Assembly (NCBI GenBank): GCA_001871015.1
Contig: MNUO01000067.1
Span: forward strand, 1 to 13,130
Direction: 5' to 3'
DNA length: 13,130 nucleotides
Source of the DNA: Candidatus Desantisbacteria bacterium CG1_02_38_46
Lineage (GTDB): Bacteria; Desantisbacteria; UBA1551; UBA1559
Positions 1 to 9,595 of this stretch are shown piece after piece. Numbering within the stretch: the stretch's first letter is position 1; the number at the start of each line of letters is the position of its first letter. A program made the position numbers and the translations under genes. The notes beneath the pieces are model-generated. The model was given only the letters and a program-made list of their open reading frames with translations, made no database searches and had not been told where the DNA came from.

Positions 1-33
1 GCAGATGCAATTGAGAAAACAGTGAGGCAATAA
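1..33 (+). CDS. C-terminal end of an upstream gene (partial)
   Basis: Frame 1 is open from the window edge and ends in TAA at 31-33, giving the tail ADAIEKTVRQ. The stop overlaps the ATG of the next gene by one base (TAATG), the usual sign of translationally coupled operon genes, and a GAGG at 24-27 serves as ribosome site for that next gene. Ten residues are too few to identify a family. Corrinoid (B12-binding) proteins of methyltransferase systems often end in a short helix of this character and would fit the neighbours, but this is a guess only. Confidence 0.5.
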   Translation, partial: ADAIEKTVRQ

Positions 34-1082
34 TGAAAATAATGACTTCTCCGGAAAGAATAAATGCGGTATTGAGAGGCGAAATTCCTGACAGGGTGCC
101 GATTGCTGAATTGTCAGTTGACCATAAAGTCATTGAAGCATTATATCCGGGGCTTTCATATTATGCTTTTATTGAACAATCCGGCTATTACGATGCTGTT
201 TGTACTTATGCGGGCATCGTTCCTCCTAAAATTAACTGGGTTGACAAATCCAAAAAGATATTTCAGGATAAATGGGGCGCACTGCAACAATTTACTGAAG
301 AAGCTATACCTTTTGTAATACCACCGGTTCGCATTGAATCCGAGAGCGACCTTGCTTCTTATACTCCCCCTGACCCAGATGACCCTGATATTATCAATAC
401 TGTCCGGGAAATGGTGAAGCGATTTAAAGGGAAAAAAGCACTGGTCTTTGTAGGAGAAGGTGTTTTTGCTCCATCTCAATATTTGCGGGGAGGTTTGGAA
501 AATCTTTTTATTGATTATAAACTAAATCCTTCTTTAGTAAAGAAACTTGCAAAACTTGTTGAGGAATATCAGGTTGAATTGTATCGCAGTGTGATTAAGG
601 AAGGGATTGAAATCGTTATGCTTGGCGATGATTATGCTGGAAACAGCGGTCCTTTTATGTCTCCGGCTGACTTTGAAAGATTTATTCTGCCGGGGTTTCG
701 CACTATAGTCCGGGAAATAAAAAACGCAGGGGCTTATTGCATTAAACATACTGATGGCGATATCCGTAAGATATTAGATATGATTTTGGAAACAGGTGTT
801 GACTGTCTGGGTCCTTTGCAGGAAACCGGAGGAATGACCCTGGCGCAAATTAAACAGCAATATCCTGACAAAGTATCTGTTATGGGCAGTGTAAGCGTTG
901 ATTTACTTATAAGGGGTTCAACTGAAGAAGTCAGGCAGGCAACAAAAAAATGCATAGCTGAAGTATCGCCCGGAGGAAGGCATATACTGTCTTCAGCCAA
1001 TACAATTTCTTCCTCTGTTAAGCCAGAAAATCTTAAAATGATGATTAATACTGCTTTAGAATGTGGCAGGTATTCAATGTAG
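33..1082 (+). CDS. Uroporphyrinogen decarboxylase (URO-D)/MtaA-like family protein
   Basis: This 349-residue protein has the length and layout of the URO-D superfamily, which includes HemE and the corrinoid:coenzyme M/tetrahydrofolate methyltransferases MtaA, MtbA and CmuA. The N-terminus (SPERINAVLRGEIPDRVPI) is the typical opening of the non-HemE branch. The middle has GDDYAGNSGPFMSPADFERF, the common barrel segment, followed by KHTDG around residues 238-242. MtaA-type enzymes bind zinc with His-X-Cys plus a later Cys. Here His239 is kept, Asp241 stands where Cys is expected, and the later site reads SSANTI (320-325) without Cys. It is therefore unlikely to be a standard zinc-thiol methyltransferase and should not be called HemE. 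The start at 33 is favoured by the TAATG overlap and the GAGG at 24-27; ATG at 42 is possible. A corrinoid-linked methyl-transfer role is inferred from the MttB neighbour. The stop codon lies inside a REP-like repeat. Confidence 0.85.
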   Translation: MKIMTSPERINAVLRGEIPDRVPIAELSVDHKVIEALYPGLSYYAFIEQSGYYDAVCTYAGIVPPKINWVDKSKKIFQDKWGALQQFTEEAIPFVIPPVRIESESDLASYTPPDPDDPDIINTVREMVKRFKGKKALVFVGEGVFAPSQYLRGGLENLFIDYKLNPSLVKKLAKLVEEYQVELYRSVIKEGIEIVMLGDDYAGNSGPFMSPADFERFILPGFRTIVREIKNAGAYCIKHTDGDIRKILDMILETGVDCLGPLQETGGMTLAQIKQQYPDKVSVMGSVSVDLLIRGSTEEVRQATKKCIAEVSPGGRHILSSANTISSSVKPENLKMMINTALECGRYSM

Positions 1083-1108
1083 TGGCAGAGTTTACTCTGC
1101 TTAAATAA
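1079..1108 (+). repeat. REP-like hairpin repeat, family A copy 1
   Basis: GTAG (1079-1082) is followed by TG and the 16-base hairpin GCAGAGTTTACTCTGC (1085-1100): a perfect 7-bp stem with a TT loop. An AT tail TTAAATAA (1101-1108) follows. The TAG within GTAG is the stop codon of the preceding URO-D gene. A GTAG-type tetranucleotide 5' of a stem-loop is the hallmark of REP elements moved by REP-associated (Y1/IS200-like) transposases; that assignment is by analogy. Confidence 0.8.
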
Positions 1109-1162
1109 GTAGTGGCCAAAAGTAGCCGACTGTAGGCACTCTGGAAGTGGCACTCTGGAAGT
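1109..1162 (+). repeat. Degenerate REP-like stretch with a 14-bp tandem repeat
   Basis: A second GTAGTGG head at 1109-1115 is not followed by the family A stem but by a mixed stretch with further GTAG words at 1122-1125 and 1132-1135. The 14-mer GGCACTCTGGAAGT then occurs twice in direct tandem (1135-1148 and 1149-1162). The second copy can form GCACT/AGTGC (1150-1154 with 1160-1164) around a five-base loop. It looks like decayed or rearranged units related to the flanking repeats. Confidence 0.65.
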
Positions 1163-1186
1163 GCAGAGTTCACTCTGCTTAAATAA
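1163..1186 (+). repeat. REP-like hairpin repeat, family A copy 2 (head altered)
   Basis: GCAGAGTTCACTCTGC (1163-1178) has the same 7-bp stem as copy 1 but a TC loop, and the same TTAAATAA tail (1179-1186). The usual GTAGTG head is replaced by the end of the 14-bp tandem repeat. Confidence 0.8.
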
Positions 1187-1216
1187 GTAGTGGCAGAGTT
1201 CACTCTGCTTAAACAA
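1187..1216 (+). repeat. REP-like hairpin repeat, family A copy 3
   Basis: A complete unit: GTAG (1187-1190), TG, hairpin GCAGAGTTCACTCTGC (1193-1208, TC loop) and tail TTAAACAA (1209-1216), one base different from the tail of the other copies. It ends 43 bases before the MttB-like start codon. No T-run follows the stem, so it is not a standard intrinsic terminator. Confidence 0.8.
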
Positions 1217-1249
1217 TGTCGAGATTGCTCAACATTTGATAATTACGAG

Positions 1250-1255
1250 AGGAGA
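1250..1255 (+). promoter_or_regulatory. Ribosome binding site deciding the MttB-like start
   Basis: AGGAGA at 1250-1255 lies four bases upstream of ATG at 1260. The frame is open further upstream to a TTG at 1236, but that start would place the ribosome site inside the coding region. Confidence 0.7.
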
Positions 1256-1259
1256 GACT

Positions 1260-2726
1260 ATGTTTGAAATTTTAAAAGACAAGGACCTGGAGCCGTTATC
1301 AGAAGGAGTGTTCAGGGTGCTGGAAAAATTGGGGATGATTTGTGAAAATAAAGAGATGTTAAAAGCAGTAGAAAATATTGGAGCAGAGGTTGATTACGAA
1401 AAACAGATTGCAAAATTTCCTAAAAGGATTGTTGAGAATTTTATCAGCACAGTCAAAAAAGAGGATAAGGCAAAATGGGAGGAAGAAATAAAAGAAGAGA
1501 ATAAAAAAACTGTATTATCTGGATGGACTCCTTATGTGGAATGCCCGGCAACATTTAAAGCACCCTATGTTCCTTCTTTGTTTCATCAATTAGGTACTTT
1601 TTATTACGATGATGAGAAGAAAGAAAGAAGAAAAGGTTGTAAAGATGATTTTATAAAATTGATAAAATTCGGTGATGTTCTTCATCCTGAAGATGGTGTC
1701 GGGCATTGTCTTAATTTGTCTGATGTTTCCTCAGCAATTGAACCGCTGGAAGCTGCCGGGTTATTAATTGAATATGCGCATAAACCAATGGGCGTATATG
1801 TTCAGGACATGAGGCAGTTAGATTATCTGAAAGAAATAGAGCAAATTGCCGCTCTTAAAGACCCTTACTGGCACTGGTTGGCAAATATAAGTTTTGCTAC
1901 TCCTTTAAAATTAGGTAAAGAAATTTCTGACCGATTTGTTTATTTATCTAAATCCTGCAATTATCCGGCAAAAGTTTATACAATGGCTGTCAGCGGGGTT
2001 AATATGCCTGTTACAACTGCAGGATGTATTGTCGTAACCACTGCTGAATTTATTGCTCTGTGGATGTGTGCCCGTGCCTTAAATCCAAAAATTCCTCTGA
2101 CAGGTTTTATTCTTACGGGGTCAATGGACATGAGAAGCGGAGAAGTTAATTACTGGGGATATGATATGTTGATTCGCCGTCTCTCAACCTGTGAATTTAT
2201 CAGGAAGTTGACAGGAGTTGCGGTTTCTCCTGGGATAGGAGAGTTTTGTCAGGCAAAATATCCCGGTCTTTATGCTACGCTGGAAAAAGCATATCTTGCA
2301 ATGACAGTCGCTGCTTTTACTGGTTTTCATCCTGAGGTCGGGATAGGACATATTGAGCAGGGGCTTACCATCAGTTTAGCACAACTTTTACTTGACAGAG
2401 AAATTAACATGGGATTGAGGTTTTTAGAGAGCCCGGTTATTGATGAGGAAAATATTGCCCTTGAAACAATTTTGGATGTTGGGTATGGTATAAGCAGAAA
2501 TTATCTTGACACAGAACACACTTTGAGGAATTTCCGTTCTGCTTTATGGAAACCAGAATTTTTCGATTTAAGCGGAAGGGGAATTGAAAGCGAAGAAAAA
2601 TTAATGAAAAAAATAAATGAGAAAATAAATCAACTCATTTCTGAATATAAAAAACCGGAAGTTGACCCCGACAAAATTTCAAAAATACGCCAGGTTATTG
2701 AAAAAGCAAGAAGAAATCTTATATAA
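1260..2726 (+). CDS. MttB-family corrinoid methyltransferase, non-pyrrolysine
   Basis: The 488-residue protein matches the trimethylamine methyltransferase (MttB/COG5598) superfamily in length and layout. It has the N-terminal helix plus GAEVD (41-45), GSMDMRSGEVNYWG (287-300), LEKAYLAMTVAAFTG (341-355), GHIEQGLTISLAQLLLDREI (363-382) and the C-terminal HTLRNFRSALWKPEFFD (420-436). Archaeal MttB carries an in-frame amber codon read as pyrrolysine. This gene reads through without one, placing it with the bacterial relatives such as glycine betaine methyltransferase MtgB and other quaternary-amine demethylases. These enzymes pass a methyl group from a methylated substrate to a corrinoid protein; the substrate here is unknown. 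No MtxC-like corrinoid protein or corrinoid-reactivating enzyme is visible, so the partner must be outside the window. ATG at 1260 is chosen over TTG at 1236 because of AGGAGA at 1250-1255. It is cytoplasmic, with no signal peptide. Confidence 0.88.
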   Translation: MFEILKDKDLEPLSEGVFRVLEKLGMICENKEMLKAVENIGAEVDYEKQIAKFPKRIVENFISTVKKEDKAKWEEEIKEENKKTVLSGWTPYVECPATFKAPYVPSLFHQLGTFYYDDEKKERRKGCKDDFIKLIKFGDVLHPEDGVGHCLNLSDVSSAIEPLEAAGLLIEYAHKPMGVYVQDMRQLDYLKEIEQIAALKDPYWHWLANISFATPLKLGKEISDRFVYLSKSCNYPAKVYTMAVSGVNMPVTTAGCIVVTTAEFIALWMCARALNPKIPLTGFILTGSMDMRSGEVNYWGYDMLIRRLSTCEFIRKLTGVAVSPGIGEFCQAKYPGLYATLEKAYLAMTVAAFTGFHPEVGIGHIEQGLTISLAQLLLDREINMGLRFLESPVIDEENIALETILDVGYGISRNYLDTEHTLRNFRSALWKPEFFDLSGRGIESEEKLMKKINEKINQLISEYKKPEVDPDKISKIRQVIEKARRNLI

Positions 2727-2741
2727 GGAGGTTTAAATAAA

Positions 2742-3551
2742 ATGGGAATAAAACGCAGATTGAAAGATGTTGACTGGGTGTGGGAAGGGCAGGGATTTGA
2801 TCAAGGTGTAGAACCATCTATTTTTGGTGTTGGTGAAGGTGCTATTTATTTTGGTTTAAGTCGTGTCTGTTATATGTTTCATCCAAATACAGAATTTGCA
2901 ATGAAAAAATTGAGTAATTTTGAAGAGGTTGTCTGCGATATTTCTAAATGGAAATTTAAAGAAGTTGAGCGCGAAGGTAATGTTGCTTGTGGTATGAAAA
3001 ATTCTGTTGATGCTAAACCAGAAACAGTGAAAGAAGAAGCAGGGAATATTAGTAAACTTTCTCTTAAATTTCATAATATTACCGGTGCAATTCATGATGA
3101 TATGTTAGGATTATGTAAAAGAGAAAATTATACACCTCAGCAGTACGGGGAAATTTACAAGGCTTTACACAATGATAATTCTGAACTCAAACTCTGGGTA
3201 GTAGTTTATACGCATGAATTAGACCCGGCAAAATGGGAAGGCTTCCTACCTTATATAGATGTTGTTAATCTCTGGGTATGGGAAGCGCGCAATCTTACAA
3301 ATCTGGATGAGGACATCCAGAAGTGTAGAAAAATCTTTTCAAATAAGCCCATAATTTTAGGTTGTTACCTGCGCGATTATCCAACTGTAGCACCAGTGCC
3401 AATGGACTTGCTTCGCTGTCAATGGGAACGTATTCCACGGTATCTGGATGAGAAATTGATTGCTGGTTATTCTATTTTAGGGGCAGTCCTTATTGATGGT
3501 CAGCAGGAACAGGCAGAATGGGTTCGCGATTTCATCGCAAAGCATGATTAA
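2742..3551 (+). CDS. TIM-barrel-like protein of unknown function
   Basis: This 269-residue soluble protein has no signal peptide. Alternating hydrophobic strands and conserved-looking acidic/aromatic turns suggest a (beta/alpha)8 barrel: AIHDD (116-120), LWVVVYTHEL (151-160), LWVWEA (177-182), ILGCYLRDY (205-213). Such motifs at strand ends are typical of glycoside-hydrolase-like barrels in PVC-type genomes, and the CBM9-like and GH-like genes that follow support a carbohydrate link. I do not recognise a characterised family, so a catalytic function is not assigned. The ribosome site AAGGAGG (2725-2731) overlaps the stop codon of the MttB-like gene and is ten bases before the ATG. The gene overlaps the next one by eight bases. 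Confidence 0.75.
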   Translation: MGIKRRLKDVDWVWEGQGFDQGVEPSIFGVGEGAIYFGLSRVCYMFHPNTEFAMKKLSNFEEVVCDISKWKFKEVEREGNVACGMKNSVDAKPETVKEEAGNISKLSLKFHNITGAIHDDMLGLCKRENYTPQQYGEIYKALHNDNSELKLWVVVYTHELDPAKWEGFLPYIDVVNLWVWEARNLTNLDEDIQKCRKIFSNKPIILGCYLRDYPTVAPVPMDLLRCQWERIPRYLDEKLIAGYSILGAVLIDGQQEQAEWVRDFIAKHD

Positions 3552-4221
3552 AAAAATTTCTTATCCCTGTTATTTTACTTCAGAGAAAATGAAGGTAGAC
3601 GGCTCTTTTGATGAGCATATCTGGCAGAAAGCCAAAAATTTAAGATTTTTTGTTCCGGTAACCCTTAAAAAACCTTTAAGCAAAACAGAAGCCAAACTTC
3701 TCTGGGACAGAGATTATCTTTATGTTGGTTTTAAGGCTTACGACAAGGATATCTGGAGTTATTTCACCAAAAGAGATGCACTGACCTGCGATGAAGATGT
3801 TTTGGAAATTTTTCTAAAGACTGATCCTGAAAAAGAACCTTATTACAATTTTGAAATAAACGTTCTGGGTACAGTTTATGACGCATTCAATATTAAAAGA
3901 GAGGCAGGTGGTAGTGACCACCATCGCTGGAGCAAATGGAATTGCCAGGGTTTAAAAGTTGGTGTGAAAATTGAGGGAACACTGAATAACTGGGAAGATG
4001 AAGATGAATACTGGCAATTGGAAGTAGCCATTCCTTTTTCGAGTTTATCAACTTTAAAAGGTAAAATTCCCAGACCGGGAGATAAGTGGTTGTTTCATTT
4101 GTCCCGGTATGATTATTCGGTTTATCTCCCGAAAGGGGTGGAACTGAGTTCCTGTGCTCCCCTTTCAAGGGTCAATTTTCATTATTACGAAGATTGGATT
4201 TATTTGCAATTTGAAAGATAG
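3544..4221 (+). CDS. CBM9-like carbohydrate-binding domain protein
   Basis: The 225-residue product is essentially one family 9-like carbohydrate-binding (DOMON-like beta-sandwich) domain. It shows KVDGSFDEHIWQKA near the N-terminus, AKLLWDRDYLYVGFKAYD, DVLEIFLKTDPEKEPYYNFEI, WQLEVAIPFSSL and PRPGDKWLFHLSRYDYS, the usual strand order of this fold. CBM9-like domains usually bind reducing ends of glycans and are often secreted. This one has no signal peptide and no attached catalytic domain. It sits between two barrel proteins and may be a subunit or accessory of them (inference). ATG at 3544 is chosen because the domain begins straight after it and it overlaps the previous stop by eight bases, suggesting re-initiation. 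There is no clear Shine-Dalgarno. TTG 3493 or ATG 3496 would add about 17 residues unlike the family. Confidence 0.78.
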   Translation: MIKKISYPCYFTSEKMKVDGSFDEHIWQKAKNLRFFVPVTLKKPLSKTEAKLLWDRDYLYVGFKAYDKDIWSYFTKRDALTCDEDVLEIFLKTDPEKEPYYNFEINVLGTVYDAFNIKREAGGSDHHRWSKWNCQGLKVGVKIEGTLNNWEDEDEYWQLEVAIPFSSLSTLKGKIPRPGDKWLFHLSRYDYSVYLPKGVELSSCAPLSRVNFHYYEDWIYLQFER

Positions 4222-4236
4222 CAGGTCAATTATTGA

Positions 4237-4241
4237 GGAGG
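4237..4241 (+). promoter_or_regulatory. Ribosome binding site supporting a GTG start at 4247
   Basis: GGAGG at 4237-4241 is five bases upstream of GTG 4247, which is in frame with the following barrel protein. The frame stays open upstream to ATG 4154, inside the CBM9-like gene, but that start has no comparable site and would add 31 residues without domain character. Confidence 0.7.
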
Positions 4242-4246
4242 CTCAA

Positions 4247-5596
4247 GTGGATGTACGAAAAGAAATGAAAGTAGAAAGTGTAGAGGAAGATGAAGATAAG
4301 GTGACTGTGGCGACCACAGGAGCAAAATACATTATTGATAAATCCGGAAAGTTTGGAAAGATTTCTTGCTACCAGATGCTTAATGAAGAGCGATTGCTCG
4401 CTACAATTGAGTTTAATCATTCATTTTCTACTTTAAGTGTAGAAGGAAAGGACAACCTTAGCTGTGTTTTTCATCAACAGACTGGAGGAAAAATAAGTTG
4501 CAGCTTCTTGAGATTGCAGATAAATAGCGATTCCCTTCTTGATATTTATTCTACGCTCGGTTTAAACCTCTCTTTTTCAGGGAATTTTCTGGCTGAGTAT
4601 AGTGCCCAGAAAGATGGGAATGTTTTATTAATTGATAAAATTGGAGGAATAGGAATTTATCCTTATCAGGGATTTAAAAATATAGAACACACTAATTTTA
4701 CTGACAAAGAATGGAAAATTAATTATGTATTAAGTGGCTATTCTCGATTTTTCGTTTCTGTATTTCCTCCTCGAAAGTTTAATTTCCACCAGTCATTTGA
4801 AGAAAGAATTGTTCACCATGGTACAATCGGACCCTGGGTTGTTGACCCGCATCCGACAGATGAAATGCTTGAGGAAGCAAATAAATATGCCAATGTTCTT
4901 GTTTTACATGAAGGAATATGGCAGGGAAAATTAACGAGAATTGGAAAGCCACTTAAAACCCTGGAAGATATATATGCAGAATCTGCTTATTGTTGTTTTA
5001 ATTATTTGCCCGTAGATGAAAAAGAACTTATAAGAGTTGTAAAAAAAGCACACTCTCTAAAAATGAAAGTTATTCCTTATATGAGTCCTTTCTTTTCAAT
5101 GGCAAAAGGACAAGATTATCTGGAGCGGTTAAAAATAACATTAGATAAATATGAATTTGATGGAGTTTATTTTGATGGAATTTCTCAAGATATACTTTAT
5201 TCCTACCAGATGATTCAGGATGCAAGAGCATTATTAAAGGATAAAATTCTTTATGTTCATTGTACTTCTGACCCGATGAAGAGTGTAAATATTTACTGTC
5301 CTTTTATTGATACCTATGCTGATTATATCCTGCGTGCCGAAGGTCTTACCAGTTTTACAGATAAATATGTCCGTTATGTTATCTCCGGTTATAATATCAG
5401 CAACAGCATCGGTTATATTTGTTATTATCACCTCCCTTTGGATTTTATGCACAAGTTCATTGATAAAACCTTAAATGCTAATGCCAGATTTTACCTGGGT
5501 TCACCAGAAACAGAAAGAGAAAAACTTTTAAAGAAAGAATATTTTTCAAAATTACAAATTGAAAAGGAGAAACAATGGAAAAAGAAAAGTTGGTAG
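4247..5596 (+). CDS. Glycoside-hydrolase-like (beta/alpha)-barrel protein
   Basis: From the GTG start the product is 449 residues in two parts. The first (about 1-185) is a beta-rich N-terminal domain. The second is a barrel with strand-end motifs VLVLHEGIWQG, VIPYMSPFF, FDGVYFDGIS (Asp305 and Asp310), ILYVHCTSD and YADYILRAEG. FDGVYFDG resembles the strand-4 acidic motif of retaining alpha-glycosidase-type barrels, where the Asp is the nucleophile; Asp310 is the candidate. No signal peptide is visible, so a cytoplasmic glycosidase-like enzyme acting on an imported oligosaccharide or glycoside is inferred. I cannot assign a GH family. The lysine-rich C-terminus overlaps the next gene by 22 bases. 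Confidence 0.72.
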   Translation: MDVRKEMKVESVEEDEDKVTVATTGAKYIIDKSGKFGKISCYQMLNEERLLATIEFNHSFSTLSVEGKDNLSCVFHQQTGGKISCSFLRLQINSDSLLDIYSTLGLNLSFSGNFLAEYSAQKDGNVLLIDKIGGIGIYPYQGFKNIEHTNFTDKEWKINYVLSGYSRFFVSVFPPRKFNFHQSFEERIVHHGTIGPWVVDPHPTDEMLEEANKYANVLVLHEGIWQGKLTRIGKPLKTLEDIYAESAYCCFNYLPVDEKELIRVVKKAHSLKMKVIPYMSPFFSMAKGQDYLERLKITLDKYEFDGVYFDGISQDILYSYQMIQDARALLKDKILYVHCTSDPMKSVNIYCPFIDTYADYILRAEGLTSFTDKYVRYVISGYNISNSIGYICYYHLPLDFMHKFIDKTLNANARFYLGSPETEREKLLKKEYFSKLQIEKEKQWKKKSW

Positions 5597-6546
5597 ATAT
5601 GTTAAGACTGATGTATAAAATAAGGTTTTTCGAGGAAAGGGCAATAAAAATTTATAAAGAGAAAGGAATCGCCGGAGAATCTCTCGGTGCCCTTCATACT
5701 TATGTTGGAGAAGAAGCAATTGCAGCGGGAGCCTGTATTAATTTGAAAAAAGACGATTATGTTGTTTCTACTCATCGCGGTCATGGCCATTGTATTGCTA
5801 AAAGAGGAGATATAAAAAGAATGCTTGCTGAGATTATGGGTAGAGTTACAGGGTATTCTTGCGGTCGCGGTGGCTCAATGCATCTTTTTGATAAAGAAAC
5901 AGGATTTTTAGGAGGAAATGGAATTATGGGTGCAGGCATTCCTATTGCTTTAGGCGCAGCTTATCGCGCAAAATACAAAAATTCAAATCAGGTTTGCGTA
6001 TGCTTTTTTGGAGATGGTTCATCTACCCAGGGGACATTTCATGAATCTTTAAATATATCTGCGTTATGGAAATTACCTTTGATTTATATCTGTGAAAACA
6101 ATCTTTATGCGGTTTCCACTCCTGTTTCAGAAGAGGTTTCCATTCCCAATGTGGGAGACCGTGCCTGTGCTTACGGAATTCCTGGAAAAGTAATTGATGG
6201 CCAGGATGTTATAAAAGTTCATAATGCAGTGAATGAGGCAGTAAAAAGAGCAAGAGATGGTCAGGGACCAACTTTAATTGAATGTAAAACATACAGGTAT
6301 TATCCACATTGCATGATAATTAAAGAGACAAGACAGGAAGAAGAAATCAAAGAATGGAAAGAAAAGGATCCGATAGTTTCTTTTGAAAAAAAACTATTAA
6401 AAGAAAAAATGATTAGCTTGGGTGATTTAGAAAAAATGAAACAAGAATTAGAAAAAGAAATGGATGAAGCAGAAAATTTTGCCAGAGAAAGTCCGTATCC
6501 TGATGTAGAAAATTTTAAAAAAGAAATATCAGACCTGAAGGTCTGA
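5575..6546 (+). CDS. 2-oxoacid/acetoin dehydrogenase E1 component, alpha subunit
   Basis: The 323-residue protein is a complete E1-alpha subunit of a thiamine-diphosphate dehydrogenase. It has the N-terminal RFFEERA segment, LHTYVGEEAIAAG, STHRGHGHCIAKRG, GRGGSMHLFD, GAGIPIALGAA, and the TPP/Mg motif from GDG (146-148) to ENN (174-176). The THRGHGHCIAKRG stretch is closest in feel to acetoin/pyruvate-type enzymes. The loop after TYRYYPH (239-245) is odd: His245 of the phosphorylation-loop position is kept, but the usual SDP/SDD and YR residues are replaced by CMIIKETR. Substrate is therefore uncertain. E1 decarboxylates a 2-oxo acid (or cleaves acetoin) and passes the acyl group to lipoyl E2. 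No E2 or E3 is in the window. ATG 5575 follows AAGGAG (5564-5569). The last five codons and stop lie inside a REP-like hairpin. Confidence 0.9.
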   Translation: MEKEKLVDMLRLMYKIRFFEERAIKIYKEKGIAGESLGALHTYVGEEAIAAGACINLKKDDYVVSTHRGHGHCIAKRGDIKRMLAEIMGRVTGYSCGRGGSMHLFDKETGFLGGNGIMGAGIPIALGAAYRAKYKNSNQVCVCFFGDGSSTQGTFHESLNISALWKLPLIYICENNLYAVSTPVSEEVSIPNVGDRACAYGIPGKVIDGQDVIKVHNAVNEAVKRARDGQGPTLIECKTYRYYPHCMIIKETRQEEEIKEWKEKDPIVSFEKKLLKEKMISLGDLEKMKQELEKEMDEAENFARESPYPDVENFKKEISDLKV

Positions 6547-6551
6547 GTTAC
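6529..6551 (-). repeat. REP-like hairpin repeat, family B copy 1
   Basis: The hairpin CAGACCTGAAGGTCTG (6530-6545) has a perfect 7-bp stem and, in minus-strand reading, the head GTAACT (6546-6551) and a TC loop. It encodes Ser-Asp-Leu-Lys-Val and the TGA of the E1-alpha gene. A further GTAACT at 6552-6557 makes a perfect 12-bp palindrome with the head (6546-6557), as if an opposite copy had been truncated. Confidence 0.8.
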
Positions 6552-6559
6552 GTAACTAA

Positions 6560-6582
6560 TCAAACCTAAAGGTTTGAGTTAC
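6560..6582 (-). repeat. REP-like hairpin repeat, family B copy 2
   Basis: CAAACCTAAAGGTTTG (6561-6576) has a perfect 7-bp stem and, in minus-strand reading, a TT loop and the head GTAACT (6577-6582). Compared with copy 1, one stem pair has changed from G-C to A-T with both partners altered. Confidence 0.8.
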
Positions 6583-6593
6583 AACATACAGAT

Positions 6594-6616
6594 GTAACTC
6601 AGGACTTTAGTCCTGA
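6594..6616 (+). repeat. REP-like hairpin repeat, family B copy 3 (inverted)
   Basis: The head GTAACT (6594-6599) precedes CAGGACTTTAGTCCTG (6600-6615), a perfect 7-bp stem with a TT loop. It is in opposite orientation to copies 1 and 2, with its head facing that of copy 2. The heads can pair as GAGTTACA with TGTAACTC (6576-6583 with 6593-6600), as in paired REP elements (BIMEs). Confidence 0.8.
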
Positions 6617-7660: not shown

Positions 7661-9595
7661 ATGAACAATAAAGAAAGCGGATTTACCAGGCGTGCTTTTA
7701 TTTTGGGAGCGTTATTTTCTTTTCTCATTGCTGTTGGTGTTCCATACGGCGAAGGTTACCTTAAAGGTTCTTATATGGCTTTAGATTTTTCTACCGGTGC
7801 AGCTATCTTTTTATTTTTTATTCTTGTTTTCGGGATAAATACAATTTTAAAAGCAGTCAATAAAAATTATGGATTAAATTCACAGGAACTTTTAACGGTC
7901 TACATAATGATGATTATTACCTGCACAATTCCTACAATGGGACTTACTTTTTACTGGTTACCACTAATGCCGGCTGCTTTTTATTATGCTACTCCTGAAA
8001 ATCGCTGGCAGGAAGTTATTCTCCCCCACATTCGTCCCTGGCTTACTCCAAAAGACCCTTTAGTTTTAAAATACTTTTATGAGGGAGCACCCAGAGGAAC
8101 AGGGGTTCCCTGGAATGCCTGGATTGGGCCACTTTTTGCCTGGTCTATTTTTCTTTTAGCACTTTATTTTGTGATGATTTGTATGATGAGTATTTTAAGA
8201 AAACAATGGGTTGAAAAAGAAAGACTCACCTTTCCTTTAGCGCAACTTCCTGTAGAAATGGCAAAAGAAGGCTCAAATTCAATTATTCCTTCTCTTTTCA
8301 AAAATAAATTAATGTGGATTGGTTTTATCATTACTTTTATTATTGGAACTTTCAATGGACTTCACCATTATTTTCATTTTTTCCCAAGAATAAATACACA
8401 GACCTTTATACCTATTTTCCGTCAAACCATTAAACTTGACTTTCGTCTGAGTTTTCCGATGATTGGTTTTACTTATTTAGTTCCTACCTGTGTTTCCTTT
8501 AGTATGTGGTTTTTTGCTCTTTTTTATATTATTGAAAGAGGAATATTTAATATCACAGGTTTTGGTATTAATGAGATTACTGATATATACACGCAGTCCT
8601 GTGGTGATGCCACCATTGGCCACCAGGGAGTAGGAGCAATTTTTGTTCTGGTAATAATGGGATTGTGGATTGGAAGAAAGCATCTTAAAGATGTTTTCTT
8701 AAAAGCAATTGGTAGAGGAAAAAATATTGATGATTCAGAAGAAATGCTTTCTTATTCTGTTGCTTTCTGGGGGATGATTACTGGACTTATTATTATGGGA
8801 ATATGGCTCTGGCTTTCTGGAATCTCTTTAATTGCTGTTGTTATCTTTTTATTTGCCTTGTTTGCTTTTTTCCTGGGAGTAACCAGAATTATTGCTGAAG
8901 GAGGAACTCCTTTAGCCAGAGCACCCAGCATTGCTTCCTTTTTTGTAATTTCTGGATTTGGAACATCAATTTTGGGTCCGGTTGGTCTTACCTCAATGGC
9001 TTTTTCCTGGATTTATGCCAGTGATACAAGGATATTTGTAATGGGTTCTGCAGCAAATGGATTAAAAATTGCTGAGGGAAGAAAAAGACTTCGTCCTTTA
9101 TTCTGGGCAATGATGCTCGCGGTCATTATTGGTGTTGCTGGTTCAGCCTGGATTACTTTAAAACTTGCCTATCAATATGGAGGAATAAATCTTAATTCCT
9201 GGTTTTTTCAGGGGGCACCCAACTATACTTTTAAATTTACCGCAAATAAAATTTTAAACCCTACCGGTCCTCACCCTGGTGGATGGGCCTTTACTATCCT
9301 GGGAGGAGCAGTAATGTGGAGCTTAATTTTTCTTTATCATCGTTTTCATTGGTGGCCATTACACCCTCTTGGTTTTCCTGCTGCAACGATTGAATTTATT
9401 CAATTAACCTGGATCAGCATCTTTGTTGCCTGGCTAATAAAAACAATTGTTTTAAGATATGGTGGACCAAAATTATATAAAGATTTAAAACCTTTATTCT
9501 TTGGATTAATTATCGGTCAATTTACTGTTTCCGGGGTGTGGTTGATTATTGACTGGATTGTTGGTGGACAGGGAAATATGCTTTTCTGGATTTGA
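7661..9595 (+). CDS. DUF6785/DUF6784 family polytopic membrane protein (OPT-like)
   Basis: This 644-residue inner-membrane protein has about 13-14 hydrophobic segments, roughly at residues 11-29, 43-63, 78-97, 155-179, 216-234, 264-290, 324-338, 364-386, 388-409, 424-452, 481-504, 543-560, 577-598 and 611-632. RKQWVEKERLTFPLAQLPVE (180-199), GVTRIIAEGGTPLARAP (406-422) and HRFHWWPLHPLGFP (560-573) are signatures I associate with the DUF6785 N-terminal and DUF6784 C-terminal regions. These are common in Planctomycetota/Lentisphaerota and resemble oligopeptide (OPT) transporters. No member with a proven substrate is known to me. Uptake of the compound degraded by the neighbours is inferred from position. 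GAGG (7652-7655) lies five bases before the ATG. The TGA overlaps the start region of the next gene. Confidence 0.83.
   Translation: MNNKESGFTRRAFILGALFSFLIAVGVPYGEGYLKGSYMALDFSTGAAIFLFFILVFGINTILKAVNKNYGLNSQELLTVYIMMIITCTIPTMGLTFYWLPLMPAAFYYATPENRWQEVILPHIRPWLTPKDPLVLKYFYEGAPRGTGVPWNAWIGPLFAWSIFLLALYFVMICMMSILRKQWVEKERLTFPLAQLPVEMAKEGSNSIIPSLFKNKLMWIGFIITFIIGTFNGLHHYFHFFPRINTQTFIPIFRQTIKLDFRLSFPMIGFTYLVPTCVSFSMWFFALFYIIERGIFNITGFGINEITDIYTQSCGDATIGHQGVGAIFVLVIMGLWIGRKHLKDVFLKAIGRGKNIDDSEEMLSYSVAFWGMITGLIIMGIWLWLSGISLIAVVIFLFALFAFFLGVTRIIAEGGTPLARAPSIASFFVISGFGTSILGPVGLTSMAFSWIYASDTRIFVMGSAANGLKIAEGRKRLRPLFWAMMLAVIIGVAGSAWITLKLAYQYGGINLNSWFFQGAPNYTFKFTANKILNPTGPHPGGWAFTILGGAVMWSLIFLYHRFHWWPLHPLGFPAATIEFIQLTWISIFVAWLIKTIVLRYGGPKLYKDLKPLFFGLIIGQFTVSGVWLIIDWIVGGQGNMLFWI

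Follow-up and report, generated by a model that had tools for sequence, protein, structure and literature searches.

The window, a 13,130-nucleotide stretch from Candidatus Desantisbacteria bacterium CG1_02_38_46, is contig C79 of a 1.73 Mb assembly in 133 contigs that is 88% complete. It carries a metabolic gene cluster with members of the URO-D, MttB, CBM9-like, E1 alpha/beta, DUF6785/6784 and short-chain dehydrogenase families. Short palindromes occupy two of its gene junctions, family 1 at 1079-1208 and family 2 at 6530-6615 (Table 1). The sequence confirms the positions of the six copies reported by the initial annotation, and each copy has the 22-base layout described there, with a four-base head, two linker bases and two 7-base stem arms closed by a TT or TC loop. 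The head was given as GTAG or GTAA (GTAR) throughout; this holds for five of the six copies, but the copy at 1157-1178 begins with GGAA. The stems differ between the families as claimed; however, paired changes also set the family 2 stems apart from one another, which makes the division into two families a simplification.

Table 1. Genes and repeat copies at the two junctions of the window, with neighbouring features.
Feature	Position	Strand	Sequence or remark
URO-D-family gene	33-1082		upstream of family 1; stop (1080-1082) is the TAG of the REP head at 1079-1100
Family 1 REP	1079-1100	+	GTAG-TG-GCAGAGT-TT-ACTCTGC
Degenerate family 1 copy	1109-1130	+	broken stem, GTAGTGGC kept (read from the sequence)
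Tandem 14-mer	1133-1162		GGCACTCTGGAAGT, before the GGAA-headed copy
Family 1 stem and loop, GGAA-GT head	1157-1178	+	GGAA-GT-GCAGAGT-TC-ACTCTGC
Family 1 REP	1187-1208	+	GTAG-TG-GCAGAGT-TC-ACTCTGC
E1-alpha-like gene	5575-6546		TGA stop (6544-6546) comes from the complement of the REP at 6530-6551
Family 2 REP	6530-6551	-	GTAA-CT-CAGACCT-TC-AGGTCTG
Family 2 REP	6561-6582	-	GTAA-CT-CAAACCT-TT-AGGTTTG
Family 2 REP	6594-6615	+	GTAA-CT-CAGGACT-TT-AGTCCTG; heads-together with 6561-6582
DUF6785/6784 membrane protein	7661-9595		70-76% identical to two more copies in the same genome

As evidence for the GGAA-headed copy, the sequence GGAAGTGCAGAGT occurs seven times in 503 kb of the same genome. The 14-mer GGCACTCTGGAAGT occurs 12 times in these 503 kb and is apparently a piece of a longer mosaic unit that includes a REP. 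The two further copies of the DUF6785/6784 protein lie on contigs C122 and C96 of the window's own genome (G000). No empty site was found for the window clusters; the repeat sites are not part of the operon paralogues compared.

To describe the repeats across the genome, we listed every perfect hairpin with a 7-bp stem and a 2-nt loop, leaving the head unconstrained, in 40 stretches that together make up 502,886 bp of this genome. Among the 452 hairpins found, the commonest tetramers two bases upstream are GTAG (69) and GTAA (62), and the next commonest at the same spacing occurs 16 times. A scan of linker, stem and loop lengths shows no other peak, apart from trivial extensions of the same elements. 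The 131 perfect elements of the form GTAR-N2-7bp-2nt-7bp compare with zero or one in each of five dinucleotide shuffles. A hold-out sample of twenty more stretches (197,668 bp, giving 701 kb for both samples together) adds 56 elements, every one with a TY loop, and the family 1 pattern has 157 exact matches genome-wide against none for its reverse. Because the GTAR counts far exceed those of the shuffles, with the hold-out and the reversed pattern as controls, the possibility raised at the outset that the pattern is no commoner than in shuffled sequence falls away, and the repeat plan is a real genome-wide feature. The family 1 pattern was matched in only seven of 290 genomes, and a narrow pattern combining both families had no match because its core was over-specific. 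The tip of the hairpin is highly restricted. Over both samples the loop is TT or TC in 183 of 187 elements, and the pair closing it is a 5' pyrimidine with a 3' purine in all 187 (T in 167, C in 20); background hairpins of the same genome are not restricted in this way and also close with A and G.

The stems fall into about 13 recurrent sequences, each tied to a head and linker. GTAG-TG is followed by GCAGAGT/C, GTCGAGT/C, GCAGACC or GGCGAGT, and GTAA-CT by CAGGACT, CAGACCT, CAAACCT, CAAAACT or CAGGGCT. A mixed minority combines GTAG-CT or GTAG-CG with C-initial stems or GTGCGAT. Counted by head and first stem base, 88 elements are GTAA with C, 84 are GTAG with G and 12 are GTAG with C. Compensated variants are common, as in the pairs CAGGACT/CAGGGCT, CAGACCT/CAAACCT and GCAGAGT/GCAGAGC. 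The initial annotation had offered two explanations for such a pattern, the first being one enzyme that tolerates any paired stem. A single resident enzyme of this kind would read the head and loop only and leave the stems to drift freely, in keeping with the constancy of head, linker length and loop over differing stems, with the pairing of some stems with both heads (for example GTAG-CT-CAGACCT) and with the in vitro tolerance of the Marinomonas Mb RAYT to a stem swap (PMC8266576). However, the stems here are few and each keeps to its head and linker; 52 of the 56 in the hold-out were already known and the other four are close variants. The same stems also recur in distant genomes, and RAYT clades A and B, described below, carry different stem styles, so we regard a stem-blind enzyme as improbable.

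Neighbours less than 80 bp apart stand in tandem in 51 cases, heads-together in 32 (mostly 0-2 nt apart) and tails-together in 20 (all 4-9 nt apart), in a loose scan that counts a few hairpins twice, once per strand. The stems of inverted neighbours nearly always differ, and their arrangement matches the dimer and heterodimer architecture of the GTAG REP superfamily (PMC3733652).

According to published work, REPs are the single-strand substrates of RAYT (TnpA_REP) HUH nucleases, and we compared the elements with RAYT genes in a tree of 88 RAYT domains. Two clades, A and B, separate in this tree with SH-aLRT values of 89% for A and 99% for B, and several deeper forks are open. TY tips are found in most of both clades, and other tree members have different loops, such as CTTGT and GC.

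Family 2 (GTAA-CT-CAnnnCT) belongs to clade A, which is similar to Bertels group 3 / subclass 2.5. G001, the only genome of the same order in the comparison set, has exact stems in common with the window genome and encodes two RAYTs of 163 aa in tandem (L107). Family 2 copies flank them directly, and seven of these copies stand in a 25-bp array. These flanking elements join GTAACT to CAAACCT, CAGACCT, CAGGGCT and CAGGCCT. The G001 RAYT scores above the NCBIfam REP-transposase cut-off and has a structural match in 4ER8, the TnpA_REP of E. coli. In G087 a stop-interrupted RAYT, 49% identical, is flanked by GTAACT-CAACCCT. Clade A stems mostly end in CT, and family 2 flanks only clade A RAYTs. 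The L107 proteins have the HUH motif MPDHLH (DH[LF]H type), the motif YIFNNP (Y-x3-NP type) and short REPs, as expected of group 3 / subclass 2.5, whose short REPs have a foot of 1-2 nt. They are at most a variant of it, because the GTAA-associated clade A proteins carry WH in place of the WQ motif that other clade A members have. Viral contigs and plasmids yielded no useful further family 2 RAYT, and phylum-wide searches for more of them were limited to 2 and 4 genomes.

Family 1 (GTAG-TG-GCAGAG/GTCGAG) is most likely part of clade B, which is similar to group 4 / subclass 2.4, though the connection is indirect. An exact family 1 element within a RAYT was found only in a clade B gene, L193 of G116, where GTAGTG-GCAGAGC-TT-GCTCTGC lies inside the reading frame and a degenerate copy stands at the 3' end. 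Other clade B RAYTs carry GTAG-CT-GCAGGGC (G001), GTAG-TT with GCCTCAT and GCCTGAT (G116) and GTAG-GG-GTCGGAT (G290 and others); the GCCTGAT element is also present in the window's genome. Clade B stems start with G, like those of family 1. These RAYTs fall below the NCBIfam cut-off and resemble group 4 to different degrees: L193 combines the NH[IFV]H and WQ motifs with an in-gene REP, L199 has WQ and an in-gene element with THIH, and L194 has WQ with DHLH and no in-gene element. The subclass 2.4 TnpA_REP proteins (PMC6006769) are like L193 in NHIH, WQ and the frame-preserving in-gene REP, whereas their published REPs are long or double-foot and the elements here are 22 nt.

The in-frame REPs of L193 (1624-1645) and L199 (1618-1639) occupy nearly the same position in RAYT genes whose products are about 50% identical, and their stems (GCAGAGC and GCTCAAT) are unrelated, which would fit an exchange of the stem with head and tip retained. 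On contig C111 of G001, the RAYT L112 (7510-8073) is flanked by GGAA-G-CCTCAAC-TT-GTTGAGG, which is another head type with the same TT tip.

Stems are known to change across RAYT evolution (PMC3686654), and this genome might reflect what that study calls an 'orthoswitch', in which a single lineage, of clade A or B, exchanged both its stems and its heads. Mixed forms of the kind GTAG-CT/CG with C-initial stems do exist here, orthologous RAYTs with several REP classes have been described, and the window's own assembly holds neither RAYT that could decide the matter. Such a switch is nevertheless unlikely, given that family 2 and the exact family 1 element each keep to RAYTs of one clade, with the stem styles described above, and that G001 has RAYTs of both clades together with elements of both families. 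Two diverged RAYT-REP lineages, the second explanation initially offered, are thus favoured over one stem-blind enzyme, because family 2 adjoins clade A RAYTs and family 1 fits a separate clade. We consider it highly probable that both families are REP elements copied by RAYT (TnpA_REP) enzymes, family 2 by those of clade A and family 1 most likely by those of clade B.

The window's own genome has three Y1 (PF01797) matches, none of them directly flanked by GTAR elements. The RAYT-like genes of this genome form a third group in the tree (100%) that is essentially without REPs. Those on C60 and C109 were rejected as cognate enzymes, having terminal inverted repeats and falling in a TIRYT-like clade, and so was the match on C53, an IS200-type fragment that lies at the end of a contig, about 300 bp from the nearest REPs. 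The proposal to cluster the stems and match them to RAYTs gave recurrent stems and RAYT flanks in other genomes, but the cognate RAYT of neither family was found in the 88%-complete assembly. REP classes without their RAYT are common in Pseudomonas (PMC3686654), and the elements here are probably relics of lost RAYTs, or else of RAYTs encoded in the 12% that the assembly lacks. The RAYT-like genes L001 (1423-2130) and L002 (1402-2445) lie between inverted repeats (GGGGACG.., GGGTCAGACCTCAACATCT..); one of the pair is frame-broken, with TAA inside, and the other has a DnaA-like C-terminal part. Identical 22-base REP classes occur in G000, G001, G087, G116 and G290 (L069), genomes of different higher groups, and their distribution suggests that RAYT-REP sets have been transferred between distant lineages.

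Compared with published REPs, the elements are short, (near-)perfect palindromes with a small loop, present in high copy number, mainly extragenic and arranged in inverted doublets and arrays. A cognate RAYT flanked by the same element is found for family 2 in G001 and G087, not in its own assembly. Earlier publications on GTAG REPs already describe unrelated stems under a common head and TY loop. The GTAG REP superfamily (Di Nocera 2013, PMC3733652; 24 families) has in common with the elements here an unpaired 5' tetranucleotide, a 6-9 bp stem, loops that often fit TY, an unpaired dinucleotide spacer in some families, hetero-dimers in both inverted arrangements, intergenic location and linkage to RAYTs. 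It differs in that the head GTAA of family 2 is a string absent from the paper's text and that the host here is an isolated uncultured lineage. The Pseudomonas REP orthogroups (Nunvar 2013, PMC3686654) similarly keep one head, linker and loop layout with different stems on orthologous RAYTs; however, their heads are GT[AG]G only, and their linker and stem lengths are different. The elements also match the one TY-tip RAYT substrate that has been dissected biochemically, that of the Marinomonas MWYL1 REPtron Mb, a group 3 TnpA_REP system (PMC8266576). Its substrate, GTAG-N2-stem-TTTA, resembles the elements here in GTAG, two nucleotides, a perfect stem and a T-TY-A tip, and differs in a stem of 5 bp plus a T-A pair, against 7 bp here, and in its GTAG head, against GTAA in family 2. 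T12, T13 and A15 are essential, position 14 is free and a whole-stem swap is moderately harmful (PMC8266576); the T required at the second tip position also appears there in the window-genome elements. A change-tolerant stem and a head that would guide the cut site are further likenesses. The features constant here (Y-TY-R tip, head and distance) correspond to the requirements of the Mb enzyme, and the variable part is the stem.

In published RAYT biochemistry, the enzyme binds the hairpin of one strand only, as single-stranded DNA, and the tetranucleotide serves it for contact and guidance (PMC8266576). By analogy, both families would be non-autonomous single-strand DNA hairpins that RAYT (TnpA_REP) HUH-tyrosine nucleases have presumably copied and spread round the chromosome. 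The common 22-base layout would then be the enzyme family's reading of its substrate: a 5' tetranucleotide contact and guide, a role that GTAA would share, a fixed 9-nt arm and a Y-(TY)-R tip. The stem would be the class-specific part, altered by compensatory mutations during the co-evolution of each RAYT lineage with its REPs. An isolated uncultured lineage would thus hold the products of two RAYT branches that impose one ruler (head, 9-nt arm and TY tip) on unrelated stems.

The positions of the elements relative to genes bear on a further alternative, RNA elements under selection at gene ends, such as terminators or mRNA 3' protection, rather than mobile DNA. ORFs take up 85% of the 503-kb sample, yet 111 of its 161 elements fall entirely between them. 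Of 80 clusters, 17 overlap a stop codon, many sit just downstream of genes, and REPs elsewhere act in RNA (PMC3733652). The copies occur in both orientations relative to genes, form tandem arrays and adjoin RAYT genes, all of which argues against selection at the RNA level. As single strands they are predicted to be modestly stable (-4.8 to -5.4 kcal/mol, DNA parameters), and an Rfam search with them gave no match. The Y-TY-R tip rule and the unpaired 5' head suit the substrate of a DNA nuclease, and we know of no RNA reason for them. An RNA element as such is very improbable, and RNA use of mobile REPs after insertion is possible. Seventeen genes in the 503-kb sample end inside a REP, mostly with the TAG or TAA of a GTAR head on the gene's own strand as their stop; these could be truncating insertions or reflect a preference for gene ends.

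Published REP definitions require the head GTAG or GT[AG]G. Family 1 agrees with this, with GTAG in most copies and GGAA in one window copy. Family 2 does not, as there are about 100 perfect copies whose stems begin with C and 88 of these have GTAA as their head, and we therefore file it as a REP-like GTAA-headed variant rather than a strict member. No description of a GTAA-headed REP or RAYT was found in the literature searched. Mb guide mutants cut at the sites expected from base 4 together with base 2 or 3, namely CC for GTGG and GA/GT for GTAC (PMC8266576); by the same rule, the predicted cut site for GTAA is TT or TA, not CT or CA. E. coli Q95 is listed among the residues contacting GTAG (PMC8266576). 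The equivalent position is Gln in 72 of the 88 RAYTs and His in both GTAA-associated G001 RAYTs, and reading onward through the G087 fragment gives His at the same place. L252 (G077) also has His, with an in-gene GTAA element; it is not counted as proof, because this is a single copy and the start of the contig truncates the gene. L149 combines WH with a GTAG-like hairpin, which counts against a universal WH-GTAA rule. In view of L252 and L149 the association of His with GTAA is a lead, not a result. Our tentative proposal, which we think somewhat doubtful, is that family 2 has a re-coded guide, in which GTAG changed to GTAA together with Gln to His (WQ to WH) and the cut moved from CT/CA to TT/TA. 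The GTAA-headed class with a His-bearing RAYT may be new; the rest is mostly known biology. If GTAA REPs were cut at TT/TA through the His at the WQ position, head base 4 and one residue would form a pair of specificity determinants open to testing in this family of single-strand nucleases, with the GTAA head as a natural guide mutation on offer. In a scan of the flanks for a cut-site signature, GTAG copies show none, and 53% of GTAA copies (25/47) have TT or TA right after the hairpin, which may simply be part of the element.
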